From IMG/VR virus record IMGVR_UViG_3300017763_000232, positions 1 to 22,027 of that record: a stretch of DNA of 22,027 nucleotides; one strand, given 5' to 3'. Positions 3,056 through 21,441 of the stretch are shown here, in pieces; positions within the stretch are counted from its first letter, which is position 1; each line of letters begins with the position of its first letter. Below the pieces are notes generated by a model that searched no databases, was not told where the DNA came from, and was given only the letters and a program-made list of their open reading frames with translations. Both the position numbers and the translations under genes were made by a program. Origin of the DNA: a virus.

Positions 3056-4417
3056 ATGACCAAAAAGAAACAGGAAAAGGAAAACAAAATAGATATCAGA
3101 CTCAGTAAAACACAGAGTCGTTGTTGGGAATTCCTAATGGATCAAAACAATACTGACATTGTTTTTGGTGGAGGTGTTGCAGGTGGGAAGACTTGGTTGG
3201 GGTCATTATACATTGCAACGATGTGTATAACGTATCCTGAGACACGATATCTAATTGGACGAACAGTTTTACAAACTTTAAAATTAACGACCTTAAAAAC
3301 GTTCTTAGAGGTTTTAAGAACTATGGGTCTAAAGTCAGGGGAACATTACAACTACAACCAACAAACTAATGTTATTACATTTTATAACAATTCTCAAGTT
3401 ATATTAAAGGATTTACAATACAATCCATCAGATCCTCAATTTGATTCCTTAGGATCGTTGGAGATTACTGCAGCATTCTTAGATGAGGCACAACAGTTAA
3501 CAAGGACTGCATATTCTGTGGTTAAGTCACGTATCAGATACAAGTTAAGTGATTATGGTTTAAAACCTAAAGTATTACTAACCTGTAACCCTGGCACCAA
3601 TTTTATCAAGACAGACTTCTATGATTCTTATATGAAGGACACCTTACCAAGTAAACATAAGTTTGTTCAGTCATTAATCACAGATAACCCACACATACCT
3701 CAAGACTATATTGAGAACCTTAAGACATTACCACCAATACAACAGAGAAGACTTCTACAAGGAGATTGGTCCTTCAATGAGGGTGAGGATAATGTGTACG
3801 ACTATGAGTCCATTACATCGTCTATATTTAAGTCACAACCTGATAGTAGTCAACAGAAATATTTGAGTTGTGATATTGCACGATTTGGATCTGATAAAAC
3901 AGTTATATGTATATGGGTTGGTTTATGTTTGGTTGACATCAAGATATTTGAGAAGATGGATACAGTACAAGTATCCAATGAGATTAAGACACTAATACAA
4001 CTACACGGTGTACACCCTAATAACATAGTGGTGGATAGTGATGGTGTAGGTGGTGGAGTTGCAGATCAGGTTAGAGGTAGGAACTTTATGAACAATAGTA
4101 AGGCACTACATGGTCAGAACTTTATTAATCTAAAGACTCAGTGTTATGTTAAAATGAGTGATCTCTTTAAATCGGGGGATATTTCAATTAACTTATTAAA
4201 CCCTGATGTTATAGATGAAATAACACAAGAACTATTAACAATAAAGTATAAGAAGTTAGATCAAGACACTAAGATACAAATAACATCAAAGGATGAGATA
4301 AAGAAAGTATTAGGTAGGTCACCCGATATTAGTGATTCAATGATGATGAGAATGATGTACGAAATTAAGAATAACGTCAAGGCAACAGGACGATACGGAA
4401 TAACAATATTAAGATAA
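3056..4417 (+). CDS. terL: terminase large subunit, DNA packaging ATPase and nuclease
   Basis: A 453-residue protein that drives ATP-dependent packaging of DNA into the prohead and cuts it. The ATPase domain shows Walker A GGGVAGGKT at 38-46, Walker B AAFLDE at 139-144 with catalytic E144, and motif III-like LLTCNPG at 173-179. The RNase H-like nuclease domain follows: D272 in CDIARFG, D326/D328 in VVDSDGVGGG, and D424/D427 in SPDISD, the three expected acidic clusters. Both domains are complete and the length is typical. It lies 48 bp after the small subunit, and its TAA shares one base with the ATG of the next gene, so those two are translationally coupled. This is the firmest anchor in the window for calling it a tailed phage. 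Confidence 0.97.
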   Translation: MTKKKQEKENKIDIRLSKTQSRCWEFLMDQNNTDIVFGGGVAGGKTWLGSLYIATMCITYPETRYLIGRTVLQTLKLTTLKTFLEVLRTMGLKSGEHYNYNQQTNVITFYNNSQVILKDLQYNPSDPQFDSLGSLEITAAFLDEAQQLTRTAYSVVKSRIRYKLSDYGLKPKVLLTCNPGTNFIKTDFYDSYMKDTLPSKHKFVQSLITDNPHIPQDYIENLKTLPPIQQRRLLQGDWSFNEGEDNVYDYESITSSIFKSQPDSSQQKYLSCDIARFGSDKTVICIWVGLCLVDIKIFEKMDTVQVSNEIKTLIQLHGVHPNNIVVDSDGVGGGVADQVRGRNFMNNSKALHGQNFINLKTQCYVKMSDLFKSGDISINLLNPDVIDEITQELLTIKYKKLDQDTKIQITSKDEIKKVLGRSPDISDSMMMRMMYEIKNNVKATGRYGITILR

Positions 4418-5199
4418 TGAAGAATTTAACATTTGAAGTAAACGATAAGGTTTACGAACTACCATCTTTTCTAAACGTAGAGAACTACGTAAAGATTTTT
4501 AAACTAAAGGATGTATTGGATGAGGAGTATGCAAATCCAAGAATCATACATGAGATTACAGGTTGTCCAATGGAAGACCTACTTGCAGCAAACTATCAGG
4601 AGATAAACTTCATTGGTAACTACTTATTAACATTGTTCCCTAAAACCGAAGAGGAATTTGTTGATAAGTTCGAATTGGATGGTGTAACCTATGGATTCTT
4701 ACCAAGTTGGAAGAAGATGTCCTTTGGTGAGTTTGCAGATTTAGATACCCTTGGTTCAAAGAAACCTGAAGAAATGGTTGACTACTTACACATACTTGCA
4801 GCAATCTATTACAGACCAATTATAAAGGAGAGAGGAGAACATGACTTTGATGTCGAGAAGTACGATAGTGAACTCGTCGATGAACGAGCAGAACTCTTCA
4901 ACAAGAAGTTAGATTGTAAGGTGGTCATGGGAGCACAGTTTTTTTTTATCAAATTCGCAAAGAAGTTACAGGATCCTACCCGAATATTTTCGACGATGAG
5001 TTGGTGGGAATCGATCAAGATGGTATGGACGATGAGGAGGATACTACCCAAGATTCTTTTGAGCAAAGATTCGGATGGTTTACAATTCTTAATAGAATCG
5101 CAGACGACGATATTACGAAGCATAGTAAGATCACAGAGAACTCCTTGGTGGCGGCGCTCAATCAACTCACTTTTATTTTGGCGAAAGAAAAAGAATTAA
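4417..5199 (+). CDS. tail-assembly-chaperone-like protein, zero-frame product
   Basis: A 260-residue product whose ATG overlaps the TerL stop by one base. Residues 1-177 look like a normal phage protein: an N-terminal beta hairpin (LTFEVNDKVYELP), a helical middle, FELDGVTYGFLP, then a conserved-looking block around GEFADLDTL and YLHILAAIYYRPI. That layout recalls phage proteins treated as tail assembly chaperones in Bacteroidota and marine phages. At residues 175-177 three TTT codons form a slippery run. Beyond it this frame becomes unusual: rich in Trp, Arg and Ser, with codons rare elsewhere here (CGG, CGC, AGC, TCG). The downstream protein-like sequence lies instead in the -1 frame. Either both products are made or the zero-frame tail is not used. 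It is far from the tape measure gene, unlike most tail chaperones, so the function is tentative. Confidence 0.6.
   Translation: MKNLTFEVNDKVYELPSFLNVENYVKIFKLKDVLDEEYANPRIIHEITGCPMEDLLAANYQEINFIGNYLLTLFPKTEEEFVDKFELDGVTYGFLPSWKKMSFGEFADLDTLGSKKPEEMVDYLHILAAIYYRPIIKERGEHDFDVEKYDSELVDERAELFNKKLDCKVVMGAQFFFIKFAKKLQDPTRIFSTMSWWESIKMVWTMRRILPKILLSKDSDGLQFLIESQTTILRSIVRSQRTPWWRRSINSLLFWRKKKN
4939..4947 (+). promoter_or_regulatory. slippery T9 run, probable -1 ribosomal frameshift site
   Basis: The bases CAG TTT TTT TTT ATC in the zero frame contain the heptamer T TTT TTT, a valid X XXY YYZ slip site. A -1 slip reads on as TAT CAA and enters a frame open for 99 codons. No strong pseudoknot or stable hairpin was evident directly downstream. 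A missing T in the assembled sequence (true T10) would give the same fused protein without frameshifting. Confidence 0.55.
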
Positions 5200-5246
5200 A
5201 CAAGAGACAACGTGAAGCAGCAGCGGCACAAGGTATTAAGATTTAA
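4947..5246 (+). CDS. -1 frame extension of the chaperone-like gene (fusion of about 276 residues)
   Basis: Reading in the -1 frame from the T9 run gives 99 codons: a basic start (YQIRKEV), an acidic linker (DQDGMDDEEDTTQD), then RFGWFTILNRIADDDITKH and a Leu/Lys helix ending in QREAAAAQGIKI. The segment starting at FGW resembles a recurrent small domain in phages that follows tail-chaperone-like proteins. The frame has no ATG near its beginning (only TTG/GTG at 5001 and an ATG further in) and no ribosome-binding signal, so joining to residues 1-177 of the upstream frame is the simplest way to express it. Codon use is closer to neighbouring genes than that of the overlapping zero frame. Both frames stay open together for about 250 bp. 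Confidence 0.6.
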   Translation, partial: YQIRKEVTGSYPNIFDDELVGIDQDGMDDEEDTTQDSFEQRFGWFTILNRIADDDITKHSKITENSLVAALNQLTFILAKEKELNKRQREAAAAQGIKI

Positions 5247-5280: not shown

Positions 5281-5820
5281 ATGGTGAACTTTAAACAATT
5301 AATAACAGATTTGAGTGGTATGTGTTACTACCATCCTCAAGTACAATCTTTTGGTTTTGGTACTTTAGACCAACTGACGGTTGATATTGAGACAAAACAA
5401 GAACCAAAGTATACAAGAGTTTACTGTATACCTGGCGATGTTAACCTTAATCAGAATGTATTGACTTACAATCTGTCAATCGTTATTGCAGATAGGATCA
5501 ATGAAGATAACTCTAACCAAAGAGATGTGATGAGTGATACACTTGAGATTGCAAAAGACTTGTTTACAATATATTACAGATCTTATACTCAAGCGGAGGG
5601 TGCATTTACCTTAGACTATGAACCACAGTGGGGTCCAACTGTAACACCATTTTTAGAAAGGTATGAAACAATATTGGGGGGATGGACTCTCAACCTAACG
5701 GTAGATCAACCATTTGATTACAACAGATGTGTATTACCTGAATTACCGTTCGATAATAAAACTTGGTCTGAGATGGCAGAACTTTGGAACACTGTCGCTA
5801 AGGATTGGGATAAAGTATAA
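5281..5820 (+). CDS. putative tail terminator/completion-like protein
   Basis: A 179-residue protein. The opening, with YYHPQVQSFGFGTLDQL at about 16-32, followed by YTRVYCIPGDVNLNQNVLTY and the VIADRINEDNSNQRDVMSD block, is a pattern seen in many phages of Bacteroidota and marine origin, generally treated as a virion or tail protein. The alternating strand and helix order is compatible with the tail terminator/completion fold, in which a ring caps the tail tube. There are no catalytic residues and no membrane segment. The ATG lies 34 bp after the -1 frame stop and has TTATATTTAA at 5265-5274 upstream. The structural role is inferred from position and recalled family likeness. Confidence 0.55.
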   Translation: MVNFKQLITDLSGMCYYHPQVQSFGFGTLDQLTVDIETKQEPKYTRVYCIPGDVNLNQNVLTYNLSIVIADRINEDNSNQRDVMSDTLEIAKDLFTIYYRSYTQAEGAFTLDYEPQWGPTVTPFLERYETILGGWTLNLTVDQPFDYNRCVLPELPFDNKTWSEMAELWNTVAKDWDKV

Positions 5821-11216: not shown

Positions 11217-14200
11217 ATGGGACAACAAACAATATTAAGGGTAGAAACAGGTAAGTCTAATCCTGTTATATCATCTGATGGTGTATACCCACCAACGTTT
11301 ACTACAAATGAGTTACCTGTCTATGACACATTAGACTTGTATAAGAATGCACCCATTAAGATTAACAAATCTTATGCGGAGGTACAAGACATATCCAAAA
11401 AGAATTCAGATTACTCAGTACCAATCAATATACCTGGCAGTAAAAAGAACAACAGATTCTTTGAAACCTTTTATAACGTTGATTCTGACACTTTATATTT
11501 TGATCCGACTCGTAGGGTCAACTGTCAAGTTTTAATTGACGACGTGGTCTATTTTAAGGGTTATTTAAAACTTAATAAGGTATCACTAAAGGATAACAAA
11601 GTAGAATACAATGTAACACTGTTTTCTGAACTTGGAGATTTGTTTGGTAAGATGGGTAACGGACTATTGTCTGATCTTAACTATACTATCAATAATGGTT
11701 GGAGACCTGAGTACACTCTTGAAGATGTATCAGACCCATGGAATGAAAGTCCTTACAGAGAAGAAGACTTACAACACAGAAGACCTGAAAAATATATGTT
11801 CCCAATTGTACACAATGGTTATGTGTATGATGATGACGGTAATGTTGCAACAGGAACAACGAGACTATACTCATCTACTATAGTAGGTGCATGGAACTCT
11901 CCAAGTGCAGCATCATCAGCGGGGGCAACTAACTACAATCTTAATAGTCCTACCAATGGATTATTCATTAACCAATTAAAACCTGCATTATCTGTATATC
12001 ACTTATTCGAATTTATATTTGACTTCTATGGTTATACTATAAAATCAGAATTCAAAGAAACACCTTGGTTCAAACAATTATACATGTATGGGTACTTTGC
12101 AAACGAGGATGTACTTGCAGGATACAAATACCCTAAGTACCAATCGTTCCCATTATCAGATGTTGAGATCATTGTACAACGTGTTACAGTCTTTTCAATT
12201 GATAGATGGTATGGAACTATTGTTAAGAAGAATACAAGAGTACCTTGTTATTGTGATGAAACAGTTGAGGTAACAATTAGAGACTTATGTACAGGTGTTG
12301 TTACAGATAAAACAATTACAATAGAACCATTCTCAAATCCTGGCTCTGTATCTGTAGGTTGTATTCCATTTGAACCTGAGATAATCAACAGTAATATTGC
12401 AATCAGTCCATATAACGACTTAGATACCAATGCGGGACCATCTTACTATCCTGCAAAACCTGGCACTGCAATTACATACTATAGTGGTAATACTGTAAAC
12501 CTAAACTTAATGATTGACCAAGAAATCAAACAGATAGATTTCTTATCGTCAGTTGCAAAGAAGTTTAACTTAGTATTCTCACCTGATCCTAACGAACCTA
12601 ATGTAATCATTATGGAACCACTACCGTTCTTTCTTGGTTCGGGTGATATAAAGGATTGGTCAGGTAAGTTATCCTATGATAAAGGATTTACGGTAGAACC
12701 TGCACAGAATTTTATAGAAAGTGAGATTATACTATCTGATAGTTCAGATAAAGACGGTGGTAACTCTGAGTTTGAAAGAATACATAACAGAGTTTATGGT
12801 GAAAAGAAAGTATACTCTAAAACAGACTTTAGATCTCGTAGTAAGAAGATAGAAACAATCTTCTCTCCTGAGGTAATTAGAAAATGGGATGTAATATCTC
12901 AATCAGGTCAAATTGATTTACCACTTGGTATCAACTATTCAGAATCATCTTCTGATGGTGACAATGGTAGTGTTACATGGACCTATGAAGGACTTAAGTC
13001 AAAACCTAAGTTATTCTACTATGTAGATAATGCAAGTCCATTCTTAAACAGTACAGGTGAGTTATTTACAGATCCTGCGGGTGGAGTAGAAACATTCCAA
13101 GTAAAGATATCAGAACCTGGCACATCTAACCAATTTGCAGCAAGATACAAGAAGATTCCAATTATATCTCATACCTCACCAATAGGTGCAGATGATGATG
13201 AGAAAATAAACAATGATACACTAAGTATTCTATTTGAATCAGAGAGATCATTGAACGTAGGAGTACAAGCATTCGATGCATATTCTAAGTTTGATCTATA
13301 CACAAGATTCTATGAGAATAATATCAATAACTTATTTGACAAAAATACAAGATTTTTAAAAGGTAAATTCAACCTAAATCTTGATGACATTCTTAATATC
13401 AAACCTAATGATTTAATTAAGTTAAAAGAACAATACTTCCAATGGAATAAAATTAAACAATACAACCTAACTGAATATGAATTAACAGAGGTTGAATTAG
13501 TACAATATAACAACGTGTTACAAACATACCCAACAAGATACTTTAATTACCATTACTTAGATAATCCTTCTGATGTATATAGGTTTAAGACCGATATGAC
13601 TAATGAAGAGTTATCAACAACTGCATGGGGTAGATCGGTTAGATACGATTACTTACAAGGTGCAAATGGTCTTGGTAATGTTGCAGTGGTTACGGGTGTA
13701 CGTGATCCATCTCAATCTTCTAACACTTATGTTGGACAAGAATGGATTGAAGTAACAGAAGAAGACTACAATACTAATGGTGGTATTGATAGAGAATATG
13801 ACTCATTATATGTGTACTCTTTATCAGGTGCATTTGGGTCATCAGGTAGTGATTTAAATAATATATTCTACCCTCTAATTACAGGACGCATATCAGGTGG
13901 TACATCTTACGATTGGTTTAACGTGTTTACAGATGCAGCAGACTTCAACACTAAATCAACAACATTTGGTTTTGTAACTGGTAGTAGTACAACTCACGGA
14001 GTAATTGCAACACCAACCCCAACTCCTGTACCTACCTTGATACCACCAACACCTACACCATACTACAATATAGATGGTGCAATGATCAGTACCTTCAACC
14101 CTGTCAACGGTCTTACATACAAAGTTGATATCTATGTTGATGGTGATTTACAAGAAACAATTAACGAACCTGTTGAAGATGGTTACTCAATACCAATACA

Positions 14201-16127
14201 AGAAGGACAAGACATTAAAGTTATTGTATACAGATTAACTGAGGTTAATGTATTGTTTGACTTAATTAGAAGAGATTTCACGAACGATAACGAGGGTGGT
14301 GATCTTGGTATAAAGGAAACAACAATAGTTCCTTCTAAGACAGAGTTTACTGATAGAGTAGAGTATGAATGGACTATTGAATTACCACAAGAAAACTGTA
14401 ACTACGAATACAGAATGGACGTAAGTAACTTAGCAGTACCTGTAGGTGCATGTAGTAGTGACTACGACTTTGTAATGACTGTTGATACAAGTATTAATAC
14501 AGGTGTTAATAACTCAGGACCAAGAAGATTTGAATTACCATTACTATTCGAAGGAACTTATAACTTTAATGTAGATTGGGGTGACGGTAATAATGATACA
14601 ATTACTTCATTTGATCCATCACCAACTGCACCACAAAACCATGACTATGCAACTGACGGTGTATACACAATTACAATCGTAGGTGAACTATTAGGATGGA
14701 GATTCGGTGGAGGTCGTGCAGACGATCATAAAGTAACTTCAGTATTAAGTTGGGGTTGTTTAGAGTTTAGTAGTATAGATACTGTATTTAGTCCTATGGC
14801 GGGAGCGTGGGAGAGTTGTATCAATGCAGACTTTACGTCAATTGCAGATACACCTGATCTTAGAAGAACACCAAGTCTTGCAGGATGTTTCGCAGCATGT
14901 GGTGTTAACCTAACAACTATAGATAAGTTAGATGAGTGGGATATGTACCATGTTACTGACATATCAACTATGTTCTTTAGTACAGCACATAACCAAGATC
15001 TAAACTCATGGTACACAGGTAACATAACAAACATGGCGGGTTGTTGGCAAGGAACAAGATTGTTCAATGGTAATATATCAGATTGGGATACAAGTAATGT
15101 AATATACTTTACGGCTATGTTTGATGCAGGATCTTCAACACCAAATATTGGAGTCTTTACAGGTGATATTAGTCAATGGAATACGTCAAGTGGACAGTTC
15201 TTTGTTAATATGTTCAGAGATCAAAAATCATTTGATGGTGACTTGAGTTTATGGAATATGAGTAGTGCACTTCGTGTAGATAGTATGTTCGAAGGTTGTG
15301 ATCTTTATGACAACAATGGTAATAACTCTATAAACAATTGGGATGTAAGTAATGTAACAAGATTCACTGAGATGTTTGCGGGTACTCCTTTCAATAGATG
15401 TATCAAGGATTGGGATACCAATAGTGCAGAATATATGGACTACATGTTCAACTACGCACAGATCTTCAACCAAAACTTAAGTGGATGGTGTACTGAAGCA
15501 ATCTTAGATTACACAGGATTTGATGATAATGCAACAGGATGGACTACACCTAACAGTAGACCTATCTTTGGAACATGTCCATCAGGACCAATACCAACGT
15601 GTGTTGATCAAACAGTACCAACACCTACTCCAAGTCCAACACCAACTGCAACATCAGTAGGACCTACACCAACTCCTACACCTACACCAACAACACCTGC
15701 AGGACCTGCACACGGTTATATGACAAATGTATCATTCTGTGATGGTGAGTTCATCTGTGACAATGCAATTGATACACAAGGACCTTGGATTCATTTGAAT
15801 ACACCATTTTGGTCTGACGAAACTACGTGTAACCCTGTATGGACAACACTTAGTAATTGTATTGACGTTGGTAATTATATTACGTATCCTGTAATACAGA
15901 CTGAAGGTTGGTATGGTCTTACACACATTGCAGACAGTTATGTAAACATAGATCCATTTGTGATATTCTATATCAAAACAACAGGGGAGATAACAAGTAC
16001 TAAACAATGTCAAAACGGTAATGTAGTTGGTTGGCCAAGTGATCAACCACCATTCGATGATGGAGATGTGACACCTACACCAATACCTGGCTGTCAAAAT
16101 CCACCAATTCCGACACCAACACCGTAA
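11217..16127 (+). CDS. giant tail/baseplate adhesin with PKD-like and BspA (DUF285)-like domains
   Basis: A 1636-residue protein, the longest here. Residues about 1-165 (DISKKNSDYSVPINIPGSKK, FDPTRRVNCQVLIDD, YFKGYLKLNKVSLKDNKVEY) match the N-terminal type of baseplate-like proteins I associate with Bacteroidota phages. The long middle carries no recognised motif. A Thr-Pro linker occurs at about 931-950. Residues about 1105-1158 form a PKD-like domain (NVDWGDGNN, then HDYATDGVYTITIVG). Residues about 1240-1423 contain several BspA/DUF285-type repeats (units such as ISDWDTSNV and INNWDVSNVTRFTEMF), found in bacterial surface adhesins. A second Thr-Pro linker (about 1467-1497), a Cys-containing domain, and a terminal Pro-Thr tail ending exactly at the stop follow. 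The ATG at 11217 is preferred over one at 11213, whose frame closes at once. Likely host-contacting. Confidence 0.75.
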   Translation: MGQQTILRVETGKSNPVISSDGVYPPTFTTNELPVYDTLDLYKNAPIKINKSYAEVQDISKKNSDYSVPINIPGSKKNNRFFETFYNVDSDTLYFDPTRRVNCQVLIDDVVYFKGYLKLNKVSLKDNKVEYNVTLFSELGDLFGKMGNGLLSDLNYTINNGWRPEYTLEDVSDPWNESPYREEDLQHRRPEKYMFPIVHNGYVYDDDGNVATGTTRLYSSTIVGAWNSPSAASSAGATNYNLNSPTNGLFINQLKPALSVYHLFEFIFDFYGYTIKSEFKETPWFKQLYMYGYFANEDVLAGYKYPKYQSFPLSDVEIIVQRVTVFSIDRWYGTIVKKNTRVPCYCDETVEVTIRDLCTGVVTDKTITIEPFSNPGSVSVGCIPFEPEIINSNIAISPYNDLDTNAGPSYYPAKPGTAITYYSGNTVNLNLMIDQEIKQIDFLSSVAKKFNLVFSPDPNEPNVIIMEPLPFFLGSGDIKDWSGKLSYDKGFTVEPAQNFIESEIILSDSSDKDGGNSEFERIHNRVYGEKKVYSKTDFRSRSKKIETIFSPEVIRKWDVISQSGQIDLPLGINYSESSSDGDNGSVTWTYEGLKSKPKLFYYVDNASPFLNSTGELFTDPAGGVETFQVKISEPGTSNQFAARYKKIPIISHTSPIGADDDEKINNDTLSILFESERSLNVGVQAFDAYSKFDLYTRFYENNINNLFDKNTRFLKGKFNLNLDDILNIKPNDLIKLKEQYFQWNKIKQYNLTEYELTEVELVQYNNVLQTYPTRYFNYHYLDNPSDVYRFKTDMTNEELSTTAWGRSVRYDYLQGANGLGNVAVVTGVRDPSQSSNTYVGQEWIEVTEEDYNTNGGIDREYDSLYVYSLSGAFGSSGSDLNNIFYPLITGRISGGTSYDWFNVFTDAADFNTKSTTFGFVTGSSTTHGVIATPTPTPVPTLIPPTPTPYYNIDGAMISTFNPVNGLTYKVDIYVDGDLQETINEPVEDGYSIPIQEGQDIKVIVYRLTEVNVLFDLIRRDFTNDNEGGDLGIKETTIVPSKTEFTDRVEYEWTIELPQENCNYEYRMDVSNLAVPVGACSSDYDFVMTVDTSINTGVNNSGPRRFELPLLFEGTYNFNVDWGDGNNDTITSFDPSPTAPQNHDYATDGVYTITIVGELLGWRFGGGRADDHKVTSVLSWGCLEFSSIDTVFSPMAGAWESCINADFTSIADTPDLRRTPSLAGCFAACGVNLTTIDKLDEWDMYHVTDISTMFFSTAHNQDLNSWYTGNITNMAGCWQGTRLFNGNISDWDTSNVIYFTAMFDAGSSTPNIGVFTGDISQWNTSSGQFFVNMFRDQKSFDGDLSLWNMSSALRVDSMFEGCDLYDNNGNNSINNWDVSNVTRFTEMFAGTPFNRCIKDWDTNSAEYMDYMFNYAQIFNQNLSGWCTEAILDYTGFDDNATGWTTPNSRPIFGTCPSGPIPTCVDQTVPTPTPSPTPTATSVGPTPTPTPTPTTPAGPAHGYMTNVSFCDGEFICDNAIDTQGPWIHLNTPFWSDETTCNPVWTTLSNCIDVGNYITYPVIQTEGWYGLTHIADSYVNIDPFVIFYIKTTGEITSTKQCQNGNVVGWPSDQPPFDDGDVTPTPIPGCQNPPIPTPTP
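14008..14064 (+). repeat. Thr-Pro linker coding repeat 1
   Basis: Low-complexity DNA of ACACCAAC/CCTACA-type units encoding Thr-Pro repeats, separating the baseplate-like part of the 1636-residue protein from its adhesin-like domains. It is one of four such tracts in this and the next gene. Confidence 0.7.
15617..15705 (+). repeat. Thr-Pro linker coding repeat 2
   Basis: Repeated CCAACACCTACTCC-like units encode a Thr-Pro-rich linker after the BspA-like repeats and before the last Cys-containing domain. At DNA level the tract is close to those at 14008-14064, 16071-16124 and 16662-16770, offering homology for recombination. Confidence 0.75.
16071..16124 (+). repeat. Thr-Pro tract at the very end of the adhesin gene
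   Basis: The last 18 codons include PTPIPGCQNPP and end PIPTPTP immediately before the stop. A linker with nothing after it suggests that a distal domain has been lost or moved to the next gene. Confidence 0.65.
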
Positions 16128-16170: not shown

Positions 16171-16980
16171 ATGAGTAAAAAATTTATACCACAGATACCA
16201 AACAATGATTTCGTCTATCCTAACAATGATAGGGTTGAATACGATCAGACAATTGTGCATGAGATAAATGATAATTGTCCATCAGGTACCATATCGGGAA
16301 TAACAATGACTCAAGTATCAAACGATGAGTTTACATTATCTTTTGATTATGATATTAATCTTAATGGTTCTATACCTTCTTTTATTGGTGCGGGTGATCA
16401 GTATGACAGACAAAGTCTTATAACAGTACACATGATGCAACCAAACAGAGTTTGGATGAAACCTTGGAAATTGGTTAACAACTATTCAGTTCCTAACGCA
16501 TCAAGTGGTCAAACCTTTAACGGTACTTTTACTGCAAATATATATTCAGCACAAATGGGGGAATTATACTTTCCGCCAGGTGACTACTCATTTGAATTTA
16601 GAATAATAAGTGAAGAGTGTGTTACTCCAATATGTGCAGTTGTAACATATACATGGACAGCACCAACACCTACTCCTACACCAACATTTGTTGGTAAACC
16701 AACACCGACACCAACGGCAACACCTACAGCAACTCCTGTGATTCCAACAGCTACACCGACTGCAACTGCAAACGTATGTACAACTTGGAGAATATCATCA
16801 CCATCTTACTCAGGTGAATCGATATATGGTGAGTATGTAGATTGTGATGGTTACACACAAAGTTTCGAATACTATTGGAATACAGGTAGTCACTACCTAT
16901 GTGTACAAGACGGGACAATGGTTGTGTATGACTATGGTATTGATGGTAATGCAGTAGATCAAGGAACCCCATGTACATAA
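16171..16980 (+). CDS. second fibre/adhesin-like protein with Thr-Pro linker
   Basis: A 269-residue protein, 43 bp after the giant adhesin. Residues about 30-160 form a beta-rich domain (FTLSFDYDINLNGSIPSFIGAG through PGDYSFEFRIISEE). Residues about 164-200 are a Thr-Pro-Ala linker. The last 65 residues are a compact Cys-containing domain (VCTTWRISSP, then EYVDCDGYTQSFEYY, HYLCVQDGTMVV, ending GTPCT), a type of C-terminal domain common after Thr-Pro linkers in phage virion proteins. The leader has TTATATTTTAAAA at 16154-16166. It may form the tip of a fibre or decorate the virion and bind sugars; the exact role is unproven. The stop TAA shares a base with the next start. Confidence 0.65.
   Translation: MSKKFIPQIPNNDFVYPNNDRVEYDQTIVHEINDNCPSGTISGITMTQVSNDEFTLSFDYDINLNGSIPSFIGAGDQYDRQSLITVHMMQPNRVWMKPWKLVNNYSVPNASSGQTFNGTFTANIYSAQMGELYFPPGDYSFEFRIISEECVTPICAVVTYTWTAPTPTPTPTFVGKPTPTPTATPTATPVIPTATPTATANVCTTWRISSPSYSGESIYGEYVDCDGYTQSFEYYWNTGSHYLCVQDGTMVVYDYGIDGNAVDQGTPCT
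16662..16770 (+). repeat. Thr-Pro/Thr-Ala linker coding repeat
   Basis: Repeated ACACCAAC/ACACCGAC/CCTACAGCAACT-type units encode the linker of the second adhesin. It is similar in DNA and protein to the tracts in the preceding gene. Confidence 0.75.
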
Positions 16981-17348
16981 TGAGAGAGTTAATAGAGAAA
17001 ATATCAAAGTGTAAAGACGATGTAGTCTTCGTTGGAAGTTTAGTAGGTAATACTGAAGATCCAAGTGACATTGATATTGTTATTACCTCTACGGATGGAT
17101 TAGAGACTATAGGAGAGTGTAAATGTCATGAGTCGAAGTCTGTGTTTGCAAAAGGTGCAAAACGTTGTAAGATCGTGGGAAATGATCTTATAGATATATG
17201 GTTGAAAGATGAATTACCTGAATATGAAATTATAGATGGTATAAAATATCAAACGATAGAAGATCAAAAGAAATACTATCAAGATGTACTCGATTCTACG
17301 GATGATAATTACATAATAGAATATATACAACAATGGCAAAGGAAGTAG
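16980..17348 (+). CDS. minimal nucleotidyltransferase (DNA polymerase beta superfamily fold)
   Basis: A 122-residue protein if it starts at the ATG at 16980, which overlaps the previous stop by one base like other coupled starts here; an in-frame ATG at 16971 would add three residues. It shows the nucleotidyltransferase signature: FVGSLVG with G19-S20, then D30-x-D32 in PSDIDIVI, and a third acidic residue D72 in NDLIDIWL. These residues bind the metal ions and nucleotide in the family, so the site appears intact. It is short, with no visible second domain for choosing a substrate, as in MNT-type proteins. Substrate is unknown: it could modify a protein, RNA or small molecule. Its end overlaps the tape measure gene by 16 bp, so it is co-expressed with virion genes. 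No HEPN partner was seen beside it. Confidence 0.72.
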   Translation: MRELIEKISKCKDDVVFVGSLVGNTEDPSDIDIVITSTDGLETIGECKCHESKSVFAKGAKRCKIVGNDLIDIWLKDELPEYEIIDGIKYQTIEDQKKYYQDVLDSTDDNYIIEYIQQWQRK

Positions 17349-19642
17349 CAATTAAAATTAAAGTTGATGGTAAAGAAATTCAAGTAACACAACAGTTATT
17401 AGATTTACTTAAGAACAGTGCTCAAATGTCCGCTGACGAGATACAAGAACTCGAGACAGCAATGACAGGTGTTGGTAAGGCGACAAGTGAAGCAACACAA
17501 GACCTTGACCAATTAGATGATGCATTAAAACAAACTAAGAAAGATACAGACAAACTAACCGAATCAGTAAATGAGGCGGAACAAGAGTACACCTCAATGG
17601 GTGAACGTATCGGTAAATTAGAAGACAAACTTGCTACATTACGTTTAGAGAATAAAGAGGGTACAGAAGAATATAAAAGAACTGCAAAGGAAATACGTAA
17701 GTTAAGAGACGTACAAGAAGAATTAGATATAACAACTCAGAGAACTCTTACAACGTTCGCAAGTATACCAGGTCCTATTGGATTTATTGCGGGTGCATTT
17801 GAATCCCTAAGAGTAGGTGCAAAGACACTACGACTTGGAATGAAGAACTTAGGTTTAGGATTCAAGACTTTAGACAAGGCAATCATGTCCACAGGTATTG
17901 GTGCACTTGTAGTCTTATTTGGATTATTAATTGCAGCAGTAGTTAAAGCGTTCAAGACATTCAAACCATTACAAGATGCGGTTGCAAGATTCGGAGTACT
18001 ATTTGAAGTATTGGGTGATGTAATACAACCTGTAGTAGATCTTATTGGTAAGGCACTAACAGCGGCACTGAACTTCCTATCCAAGGCGATAGCATTCGTT
18101 ACAGGTAATCTTGATGAGTTTAATAAGAAACTCGCAGACAAGGCGGCAGCAGAACAAGCACTAGCACAATACGAAAAACAAAGAAAAGAGTTTGAACTTA
18201 TGGGTGATACCATGAGTGAGGTTGAACAACAGATTACTCAAGCAAAGTTAGACGCATTTGCAAAGAGACAAGAGATCAATGAGGATGAGAAGTTAAGTGA
18301 AGCGGAGAAAACCTATTACATCAGACTTGTCAATGAGAGATTAGAAAGAGATATCACTGCAATACAGAAGGCGGAACAGGAGAAACGTAACGCAGCTGCG
18401 AAGGCACGAAGAGAGAAACGTAAAGCGGCGAGAGAACAAAGACTACGTGATGAACAAGCATTCCAAGATGAACTAACTGCATTAGAACAGAGTAATGAAC
18501 TAATGAGAATTGAGGAAGGGTTTGACAGACAGAAGAAAGCGTTGGAACAAGAAGAACAAAACGCAATCACCGCAGCGACAAGAAAATATAATGATAAAGA
18601 AAAGTTAGAACAAATACTATTTGAAATAGATCAGAAGTATGCACTCAAACGTAAAGAACTACAAGATAAGATAGATACTGATCGTGAAGCAAAGGTAAAA
18701 GAGAACGAACAACGTCTTTCAGATCTTAGAGCACAGATTAGAGATGCGGAGGCAAACACTGAACAAGAGTTTAGAAGTCTTGAACTTGAGAACGCAAGGA
18801 TGTTCTATGATGACCTTATTGCACTTGCAAAGGAAGAAGGTATATCAACTGCAGAACTTGAAAAGTCTAAGAATGAAGAGTTAAGAAGATTACAACAAGA
18901 GTTCTACCAACAAGATAAAGAACTTAAGGAACAACAAGCACAAGAAGAGAGAGATCGTGACGCAGCGATGGTTGAGTGGAAGATGACTCAAATGATGGCG
19001 ATCGCAGGTATCGCACAACAAGTTGCAGGTATCTTAGCGTCGGTAGCGGGTGAGAATAAGAAACTCGCAAAGGCGGCGGTAATATTAGAGAAAGCGGCAG
19101 CAATCGGACAGATAGTTGCAAACACTGCAATTGCAAACGCTAAGGCGGTCGCAGCATCACCATTAACATTTGGTCAACCTTGGGTTACTATCAACACAAT
19201 TAGTGCGGGTGTTGCAATTGCGGGTACTATCGCAGCGGCAGTCAAAGCGGTAAAAGAGATTGACGGTGGTGGTTCTTCAGGAGGTGATGAAGGTGGAGGA
19301 GAAGGTGGTGGAATGACATCACAACGTGGTTACGCTAAAGGTGGTATGATCGGTGGAGAGAGACACGCACAAGGTGGTACACTAATAGAAGCGGAACAAG
19401 GTGAAGCAATCATGACAAGAGGTGCAGTATCACTGTTTGGTCCAATGTTGTCAATGATGAATCAAATGGGTGGGGGAGTTGCATTTAACTCAGAAACATC
19501 TGTTACATCATTTGATAATCCAACAGTATCAAATCCTGCGGCTGAACAATCACCACAAATAATTAAATCATATGTTGTTGAACAAGAATTGACAAACAGT
19601 CAAGAACAGGCGGAACGACTTAAGGATTTAAGTACATTATAA
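17333..19642 (+). CDS. tail tape measure protein
   Basis: A 769-residue protein that should set tail length and help deliver DNA through the host envelope. Residues about 25-140 and about 265-560 are long coiled-coil regions rich in Glu, Lys, Gln and Ala. A hydrophobic segment at 184-207 (IMSTGIGALVVLFGLLIAAV) could span a membrane. Another hydrophobic region lies at about 610-641, followed by a Gly-rich stretch (about 644-660) and the motif YAKGGMIGGERHAQGGTLIE, typical near the C-terminus of tape measures in this host group. No peptidoglycan-hydrolase motif is visible. If roughly 1.5 angstrom per residue holds, the tail would be about 110 nm, which would suit a siphovirus or myovirus. The ATG at 17333 lies inside the end of the nucleotidyltransferase gene. 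Confidence 0.9.
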   Translation: MAKEVAIKIKVDGKEIQVTQQLLDLLKNSAQMSADEIQELETAMTGVGKATSEATQDLDQLDDALKQTKKDTDKLTESVNEAEQEYTSMGERIGKLEDKLATLRLENKEGTEEYKRTAKEIRKLRDVQEELDITTQRTLTTFASIPGPIGFIAGAFESLRVGAKTLRLGMKNLGLGFKTLDKAIMSTGIGALVVLFGLLIAAVVKAFKTFKPLQDAVARFGVLFEVLGDVIQPVVDLIGKALTAALNFLSKAIAFVTGNLDEFNKKLADKAAAEQALAQYEKQRKEFELMGDTMSEVEQQITQAKLDAFAKRQEINEDEKLSEAEKTYYIRLVNERLERDITAIQKAEQEKRNAAAKARREKRKAAREQRLRDEQAFQDELTALEQSNELMRIEEGFDRQKKALEQEEQNAITAATRKYNDKEKLEQILFEIDQKYALKRKELQDKIDTDREAKVKENEQRLSDLRAQIRDAEANTEQEFRSLELENARMFYDDLIALAKEEGISTAELEKSKNEELRRLQQEFYQQDKELKEQQAQEERDRDAAMVEWKMTQMMAIAGIAQQVAGILASVAGENKKLAKAAVILEKAAAIGQIVANTAIANAKAVAASPLTFGQPWVTINTISAGVAIAGTIAAAVKAVKEIDGGGSSGGDEGGGEGGGMTSQRGYAKGGMIGGERHAQGGTLIEAEQGEAIMTRGAVSLFGPMLSMMNQMGGGVAFNSETSVTSFDNPTVSNPAAEQSPQIIKSYVVEQELTNSQEQAERLKDLSTL

Positions 19643-19662
19643 TTTTTTTTATATTTAAAAGT

Positions 19663-21441
19663 ATGAGTAAGAAAGAACGTATCATAGAATTAAAGATCGA
19701 AGATGATGATTTAATCTCAGGAGTAGATCAAATATCATTAGTAGACGAACCTGCAATTGAATACGATTGGATCGCATTTAAAAAGGAAGATGAGAACTTC
19801 TGTATCCCTGAAGGAGATGAAGATAAGTACTTAGAACACATGACATCAATTGGTGAGAGTGTGGATAGTCTATTAGAAGATGGATGGGTGGAAGTAGAAT
19901 CAACATCAATGTCTAAGAGTGATTTTGCAGCAATATCATCATCACCAAACAAAGAATCAGTATTTGATACTGACACTACAAGAGTAAGATTCAGATACGG
20001 TCTTAACCCTATATTCAAAGGTCAACCACAAACAATACCTACATCAAGAAGATTCTGTAGAGAAATGGTTGCAAGTAACCGTGTATATAGATATGAAGAT
20101 ATAGAGACTGCAGACAATGGTATGAATTCTTCAGCACTATTGTGGAGAGGATCATACAACTGTCGTCACAATTGGTTTAAAGTAGTATACAAACAAGACA
20201 GTCGTATTGTAAACAAAGCGTCTGTAAACAAAGGTAAAATAGATGGTGGTCAAGATTATGGAGATTTACCTCCATTTGGTCAACCAAGTACACAAGTAAC
20301 AATGAGTAAAGAGAAATTCACTTTACCATTATTTGAAAACGAACAAGATGCAATCGACTATTCTAAAATGTTAGATTGTGAAACAGGTGCACATCCACAC
20401 GAAATCGGTGGGGTTACCTTATATATGCCATGTGTATCTCATCCTGAAGATATGGAAGAGGAATGTGGTTGTAAAAAAGAAATGGATATTGATGTAAGTG
20501 GATTACCACCATATGTTGATGAAGTTCCTGAATGTGAAGATCCAAAGAACTGTCCTAAGAAGAGAGATAACTTTGAGACTTATAATGACTATCCAAAGGC
20601 GGCATCAAACAACGCACAGATTGCATTAGACTACGCAGAGAAGAACGGTTGGGGATCTTGTGGCACCCCCGTGGGGAAGCGTCGTGCATCGCAACTCGCA
20701 AAGGGTGAAAATATTTCAGAGGAAACGATAGCGCGCATGGCAGCGTTTGAAAGACACAGACAACACTCTGATAGAAAATTAGGTGACGGATGTGGTCGTC
20801 TTATGTGGTTAGCATGGGGTGGTGACGAAGGAATTGAGTGGGCATCAAGAAAGTTAGACTCAATACGTGAAGATATGATAGAACCTAATCCATGTCAGCC
20901 AGGTTATGAGGCAATAGGAACTAAACGTAAAGATGGTAGAACAGTACCAAACTGTGTACCTGTACAAAACTCTAAAACTGTATTCTCATTCAATGCGGAT
21001 GACGAACAAATGGTTGTCGTGGGACCTGCAATGATTCCAAACAAAAAGATAATCAGAAGAGATGAGTATGGTAATGAATACTTTGTATACTTCTCAGAAG
21101 AAACTATCAAACAGATATCAGAGAAGTTTATGAAACGTGGGTATACTAAAGATAGTCAACACGATATCATGCACAACGGACCTGGCGAACAAGATGTATA
21201 TGTTGCAGAATCATGGTTGATAGAGGATCCTGAAAACGATAAGAGTAGAATGTATGGATTCGATGACCTACCAAAAGGAACTTGGATGACCAAGATGAAA
21301 GTAAACAACAAGGATGTTTGGGAAAAGGTTAAGAGTGGTGAACTACGTGGTTTCTCTGTATCAGGTTACTTTGAGGAGTACGAGGTAGAGAAGATCAACG
21401 AAGAGTTATTCTTAAAAGAATTAGCAAAGTTATTATCTTAG
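19663..21441 (+). CDS. mosaic head morphogenesis protein: Mu F-like segment plus XkdF-like putative protease domain
   Basis: A 592-residue protein built from several modules. Residues about 1-35 (DLISGVDQISLVDEPAIEYD) are the usual opening of XkdF-like proteins. About 105-180 resembles the C-terminal part of Mu F-like minor head proteins (RRFCREM with C132, and NCRHNW at 166-171). About 220-270 holds a Cys/His block (GAHPHEIGGVTLYMPC). About 310-390 is a repeated phage module (NGWGSCGTPVGKRRASQLAK, then GCGRLMWLAWGG). About 420-435 is a short Cys loop. Residues about 450-592 form the XkdF-like putative prohead protease domain (VVVGPAMIPNK, VYVAESWLIED, GELRGFSVSGYF). The likely role is prohead processing. 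TTATATTTAAAA at 19649-19660 precedes the start. A G+C-rich patch lies at 20650-20745. Confidence 0.8.
   Translation: MSKKERIIELKIEDDDLISGVDQISLVDEPAIEYDWIAFKKEDENFCIPEGDEDKYLEHMTSIGESVDSLLEDGWVEVESTSMSKSDFAAISSSPNKESVFDTDTTRVRFRYGLNPIFKGQPQTIPTSRRFCREMVASNRVYRYEDIETADNGMNSSALLWRGSYNCRHNWFKVVYKQDSRIVNKASVNKGKIDGGQDYGDLPPFGQPSTQVTMSKEKFTLPLFENEQDAIDYSKMLDCETGAHPHEIGGVTLYMPCVSHPEDMEEECGCKKEMDIDVSGLPPYVDEVPECEDPKNCPKKRDNFETYNDYPKAASNNAQIALDYAEKNGWGSCGTPVGKRRASQLAKGENISEETIARMAAFERHRQHSDRKLGDGCGRLMWLAWGGDEGIEWASRKLDSIREDMIEPNPCQPGYEAIGTKRKDGRTVPNCVPVQNSKTVFSFNADDEQMVVVGPAMIPNKKIIRRDEYGNEYFVYFSEETIKQISEKFMKRGYTKDSQHDIMHNGPGEQDVYVAESWLIEDPENDKSRMYGFDDLPKGTWMTKMKVNNKDVWEKVKSGELRGFSVSGYFEEYEVEKINEELFLKELAKLLS
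20650..20745. other. G+C-rich patch inside the XkdF-like gene
   Basis: Within a gene and genome of about one-third G+C, this stretch is well over half G+C by hand count and uses codons rare elsewhere (CCC, GTG, GGG, CTC, CGC, and a GGC glycine at 20662). It encodes WGSCGTPVGKRRASQLAK and the following helix. It may mark a recently exchanged module. Confidence 0.55.

Follow-up and report, generated by a model that had tools for sequence, protein, structure and literature searches.

A gene that lies directly after the terminase gene in the virus record IMGVR_UViG_3300017763_000232, of which a stretch of 22,027 bases (the window) was analysed, raises the question of whether a run of nine T's (T9) gives one gene two C-terminal ends, at which level the reading frame would be shifted and what the two products would do. 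The gene starts with an ATG at 4417 which overlaps the stop codon of the terminase large subunit gene (TerL, 3056-4417, + strand as are all features of this locus; phrog_2 at 3e-36, Pfam Terminase_3). Its first 177 codons (4417-4947), common to both products, end with three TTT codons at 4939-4947, read CAG TTT TTT TTT ATC, and this run is the sole homopolymer of nine or more bases within the window. Past the run, the zero frame remains open for 83 codons (4948-5199, stop codon at 5197-5199), leading to an ORF (4417-5199) of 260 residues, and the -1 frame, which re-reads T4947, is open for 99 codons (4947-5246, stop codon at 5244-5246), leading together with the N-terminal part to a product of 276 residues; the two extensions overlap by 249 nt. 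The zero-frame tail is basic and Trp-rich (18 Lys and Arg, 5 Asp and Glu, 6 Trp), and the -1-frame domain consists of an acidic linker followed by a helical domain with the layout F-G-W..LNR..DDITKH. No start codon is present near the beginning of the -1 frame, the first listed one being a TTG at 5001. The initial annotation had read the three TTT codons, the extents of the two frames, the sizes of both products, the Trp/Arg-rich character of the tail and the lack of a credible start in the -1 frame from the letters of the window, and all of these readings agree with the computed values.

To place the gene among its relatives, IMG/VR was searched twice with the N-terminal part and once with the -1 domain, giving sequences of 31-75% identity. 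The first searches gathered 136 loci, 131 of which span the slippage site, the remaining five being truncated at the end of a contig or disrupted in the N-terminal part. The two-frame arrangement was found in 131 of these 131 loci, which come from many metagenomes, and the T run suspected by the initial annotation of being a slippage site proved to be conserved in all of them, as T9 in 130 and as T10 in a single locus (L055), where the next base is also a T and the frame relation is the same as in the T9 loci. In an alignment of 35 sequences, CAGTTTTTTTTTA is invariant at the slippage run. In the first 24 relatives, identity over the shared N-terminal part ranges from 47 to 75%, and this part carries the conserved motifs YGF..P.W..SFGEFADLDTL and YRPI, and the -1 domain has invariant F/G/W/N/R/H/N positions among the relatives. 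TerL is syntenic upstream in nearly all relatives long enough to tell, and almost every locus of sufficient extent has the order TerL, T9 gene, conserved gene (5281-5820 in the window, syntenic in both of the clades described below). Upstream of the terminase genes, many relatives also share the gene found at 1771-2301 in the window, whose 176-residue product resembles by eye a small sigma factor, with no Pfam match.

A search reaching further gave matches to 509 relatives, from which 80 were retrieved, and clustering at 80% identity led to 56 groups. The run is T9 in 49 of these clusters, T10 in 6 and T7 in one; L203, called T7 automatically due to a shorter run just upstream of its T9, was counted as T9, this T9 being visible in L087 from the same contig. 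Over the 56 clusters, the slippage run occurs in three codon phases. In clade 1, the window's own group, it reads CAG TTT TTT TTT A and the zero-frame tail has 59-97 codons, whereas in clade 2, composed of marine relatives, it reads GTT TTT TTT TGG, one base out of register relative to clade 1, and the tail has 27-36 codons. The sole T7 relative (L205, 3354-3360) has the bare T TTT TTT heptamer and a zero-frame tail of 7 codons, a design resembling the classical tail-chaperone frameshift, and could be a natural ribosomal counterpart of the T9 relatives. Two viral proteins, A0A6J5N0W0 and A0A516L5A8, match both the zero-frame and the -1 structure models, so that one-frame fusions are possible; loci with both frames fused into one, or with a -1 frame that is not conserved, were looked for and none was found among the loci inspected. 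No relative was found in 84,980 bacterial and archaeal species genomes. The group of phages carrying this gene is large and almost entirely uncultured, with Bacteroidota as probable hosts.

Among cultured phages, the arrangement was recognized in the Nonlabens (Persicivirga) phage P12024L, a phage of about 35 kb that is distant in sequence, with no tblastn match to the window protein. Its gp40 lies directly after TerL, the N-domain carries YGF and YRPV, and T9 is found at 24388 of the record; the zero-frame tail has 24 codons and the -1 frame runs into the annotated gp41, which has a KWGWY motif. T9 is thus common to P12024L and the window, but the overlap is shorter in P12024L. The record annotates gp40 and gp41 (23946-24640) as two hypothetical proteins; they seem to form a single gene with a T9 slippage site, and gp40 of phage P12024S is 99.4% identical to that of P12024L. 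No homologue was detectable in four cultured phages with a related TerL (Flavobacterium 11b, Cellulophaga phi10:1, Bacteroides Versailles and Polaribacter P12002L), in which TerL is followed by a portal or another gene. Flavobacterium phage 6H gave a structural match to the N-domain, and no clear -1 arrangement was found in its gp10, taken as the matching protein.

The constraint on each frame was assessed by several comparisons. In the openness test, the -1 protein was kept fixed, codons were drawn at the phages' usage and the length of the zero frame was scored; a zero frame open at least to the observed length has a chance probability of 4.5e-6 in the window (represented by its copy L025), and in the 31 clade-1 clusters the median is 1.6e-4, with at most 0.029 in each. 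As a control, the median open length past the run is 8 codons in the third (+1) frame versus 68 in the zero frame. For the clade 2 tail, openness is not significant (P 0.06-0.4), and dual coding, judged from these clusters, is not universal, the long overlap being confined to clade 1 and some other groups. Synonymous changes were compared over 28 sequence-disjoint pairs. Synonymous codon differences amount to 26.1% in the singly coded N-terminal part (zero frame); for the -1 frame, they drop to 12.3% across the overlap and stand at 29.6% past the zero-frame stop. At columns 61-100 of the -1 frame, the value is 9.4% for pairs with an open zero frame versus 28.2% for those with a closed one (Fisher 8e-12). 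The zero-frame identity is 78.7%, versus 70.2% in simulations that preserve the -1 protein and avoid zero-frame stops, and 0 of 500 simulations gave a value as high. None of 147 synonymous third-position changes of the -1 frame created a zero-frame stop, and the mean BLOSUM62 score of the same changes in the zero frame is -0.01 versus -0.71 expected, with 0 of 5000 as conservative. In the overlap, changes at codon positions 1 and 2 stand in a ratio of 1.8, no different from -1 sequence coding in one frame alone, and this measure is neutral. The pairs are disjoint but nested on a tree, so that the P-values overstate their independence. Five tests agree and indicate that, in clade 1, purifying selection acts in both frames across the overlap. 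These data are in agreement with the roughly 250 bp of dual-coding DNA suspected in the initial annotation, and the synonymous-site constraint, together with the conservation of the run and of both downstream frames, favours a programmed shift with dual coding.

Other readings of the same locus have to be weighed against these data. Homopolymers are error-prone in general, and a sequencing or assembly error could have shortened ten real T's, which would make this an ordinary single gene; however, in the local context of clade 1, IMG/VR contains T9 in at least 119 stretches and neither T8 nor T10 (0 and 0), and T9 is also found in the separately sequenced P12024L. An assembly artefact as the source of T9 was rejected on these two grounds, and the codon statistics, which point to selection on both frames, also stand against an error, to which we give a negligible probability. 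The lack of T8 or T10 variants in the clade-1 context of IMG/VR bears equally on phase variation at the DNA level, where mixtures of T9 and T10 in the population would switch the C-terminus on and off. Homopolymers this long can mutate in DNA replication (PMC3711429), but phase-variable tracts should differ in length between close relatives, and this explanation appears very improbable. The zero-frame tail could also be a passive by-product, the -1 product being the sole functional extension and the zero frame being open by chance or delaying termination. The short tail of clade 2 and its non-significant openness, the low-confidence model obtained for the tail, the ratio of 1.8 and the fact that conserved zero-frame residues such as DG mirror the FGW of the -1 frame all fit with this proposal, which is nevertheless improbable in view of the openness of the zero frame in the window, of an identity above that of the simulations, of tolerated changes that are conservative in the zero frame and of a constraint that stops where the zero frame stops.

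With programmed slippage at T9 as the preferred reading, either the ribosome or RNA polymerase could be responsible, the peptide being identical whether an extra U is inserted by RNA polymerase or the ribosome slips by -1. The initial annotation proposed a ribosomal slip on T TTT TTT, and purely ribosomal -1 frameshifting as in lambda G/GT, with the dual coding retained, is a serious possibility that we place somewhat below even odds. The heptamer is present in the right phase at every site, U_UUU_UUU is one of the heptamers listed as -1-prone in E. coli (PMC4066793), the lambda-type tail-chaperone shift, the best known of its kind, is ribosomal (PMC5009743) and L205, with its bare heptamer, looks classical. 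However, seven T's suffice for a ribosomal heptamer, yet the run is kept at 9 or 10 in every codon phase, none of the clusters having 8. Similarly, TTC represents 20-31% of the Phe codons elsewhere in the N-terminal part and U_UUU_UUC is also slippery in E. coli (PMC4066793), yet no slippage run is interrupted by a C. In phase 0, the Phe codons and their aromatic neighbours supply the nine T's partly for free. Downstream of the run, in a search that covered pseudoknot-free structures, RNAalifold predicted no conserved base pair for the 35 sequences, and in 12 single-sequence folds L010 alone stands out (z -2.6, the others having z > -1.6); U-rich slip sites may need no stem. A role of T9 as an intrinsic terminator was rejected, a scan showing no stem before the run. 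Regarding transcription, runs of nine A or T are efficient slippage sites for bacterial RNA polymerase (PMC5009743), the slippage threshold for a homopolymer being eight (PMC3711429), and the T9 and T10 runs have the length typical of transcriptional slippage (about 8-9 or more A or T, in any codon phase). Since 55 of 56 clusters have T9 or T10, whichever of the three codon phases is used, and a conserved RNA stem was not found, RNA polymerase is mildly favoured, and we put its slippage at about even odds, somewhat above that of the ribosome. Of the slip as originally proposed, the heptamer is thus retained, whereas the run length, the codon phases and the missing stem lean to the polymerase.

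Known systems offer a comparison for both mechanisms. In Thermus thermophilus, dnaX contains a homopolymer of nine T's, in the wording of a review, which leads to two C-terminal forms (PMC5009743), and in Citrobacter rodentium a run of 11 A in tssM1 also leads to two C-terminal forms, both of which are needed, as is their ratio (PMC4256274). These are cases of programmed transcriptional slippage in other protein families, whereas slippage at the RNA level is only a candidate at T9, and the T9 gene has instead a long selected tail in the unshifted frame. The likeness to lambda G/GT put forward initially holds for the two-isoform design: one start and a -1 shift at a slippery site would give a short product and a longer product with a -1 domain, in the structural operon of a phage encoding a tape measure protein, and a recognised slippery sequence, T TTT TTT, is present inside T9. 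It does not extend to the length of the overlap or to the position of the gene. In lambda, the zero frame ends 18 nt after GGGAAAG, and in the SEA-PHAGES data it ends on average 26 nt after the slip (PMC10885494), versus 252 nt in the window with the stop codon included; such an early end is not seen in the window or in clade 1, L205 and P12024L being nearer the norm. Lambda G/T abuts the tape measure gene, whereas the T9 gene follows TerL, as noted initially, and about 12 kb separate it from the downstream tape measure gene (17333-19642, + strand; phrog_339 at 1.4e-14).

Regarding function, no Pfam match was found for the product of the T9 gene, no sequence similarity to lambda G/G-T or to the HK97 chaperone, and no match by sequence to a named chaperone family, the only PHROGs above noise being of unknown function. 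One of these, PHROG 32199, is matched by 48 of 54 family members (best 4e-5) and by clade-2 records at 3e-19; neither a function nor a frameshift is listed for that family. The AlphaFold2 model of the N-domain is well folded (pLDDT mostly 67-88), that of the zero-frame tail is helical with low confidence (pLDDT 43-65), and the -1 domain, modelled by itself, reached low confidence (pLDDT 63) and had weak viral matches only. Searches of the PDB returned no Foldseek match to the model below E 1.6 and no sequence match better than E 0.1. Residues 2-75 of the N-domain match weakly the fold of 2ob9, the tail assembly chaperone of HK97 (Z 3.4, rmsd 3.7, 70 residues). Chaperones of the lambda type bind the tape measure and major tail proteins and are absent from the virion. 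The analysis suggests that the gene probably encodes a tail assembly chaperone which, as in lambda G/GT, would have two C-terminal forms.

Several other genes of the window were described in passing. Just upstream of the tape measure gene, which is the usual place of tail chaperones, a small nucleotidyltransferase-like protein is encoded at 16971-17348 (match below the Pfam cut-off). Directly behind the tape measure ORF, the few bases that separate it from the following gene contain a T8 run (19643-19650). The product of that following gene (19663-21441), 592 residues long, carries an XkdF-like serine protease domain (PF14550) in its C-terminal third and matches a portal PHROG (33693) over one stretch; it may be a fused head protein. 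At 11217-16127, a 1,636-residue protein has DUF285 repeats (PF03382, 2.4e-39) near its C-terminus and Pro-Thr linkers, and is perhaps a host-binding tail protein.

Altogether, we propose, with a probability of roughly 0.8, that the conserved T9 is the site of programmed slippage in a gene resembling those of tail assembly chaperones, 249 nt of which encode two selected peptides. Most transcripts or ribosomes would keep the frame and lead to the 260-residue protein, made of the N-domain and the basic, Trp-rich tail. A minority would shift at the run, by an extra U from RNA polymerase or by a -1 slip of the ribosome, and lead to the 276-residue protein, in which the N-domain would be followed by the acidic linker and the FGW...LNR...DDIT helical domain. 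The conserved run, the conservation of both frames and the doubly selected overlap are established by comparison among relatives; the synthesis of both proteins, their ratio and the chaperone role are inferred. A more specific version, that it is RNA polymerase and not the ribosome that slips at the fixed T9 to make the chaperone, with the unshifted frame as a second functional C-terminus and the ratio set at transcription, is put forward tentatively, its chances being a little under even.

Frameshifted tail chaperones such as lambda G/GT and transcriptional slippage as in dnaX and tssM1 are already known. In the literature searched, which included few subscription papers, no description was found of a 59-97-codon zero-frame tail selected in both frames on a fixed T9. 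For annotation, the consequence is that gene callers will give a single frame or, as in P12024L, a pair of unrelated hypothetical proteins. The zero frame of frameshifted chaperones normally just stops, whereas here, in several dozen divergent phage lineages, a long overlap is kept by selection in both frames, and the unshifted protein may thus not be just a shorter version. If RNA polymerase is the one that slips, transcription and the length of the run would determine the proportions of the two assembly chaperones.
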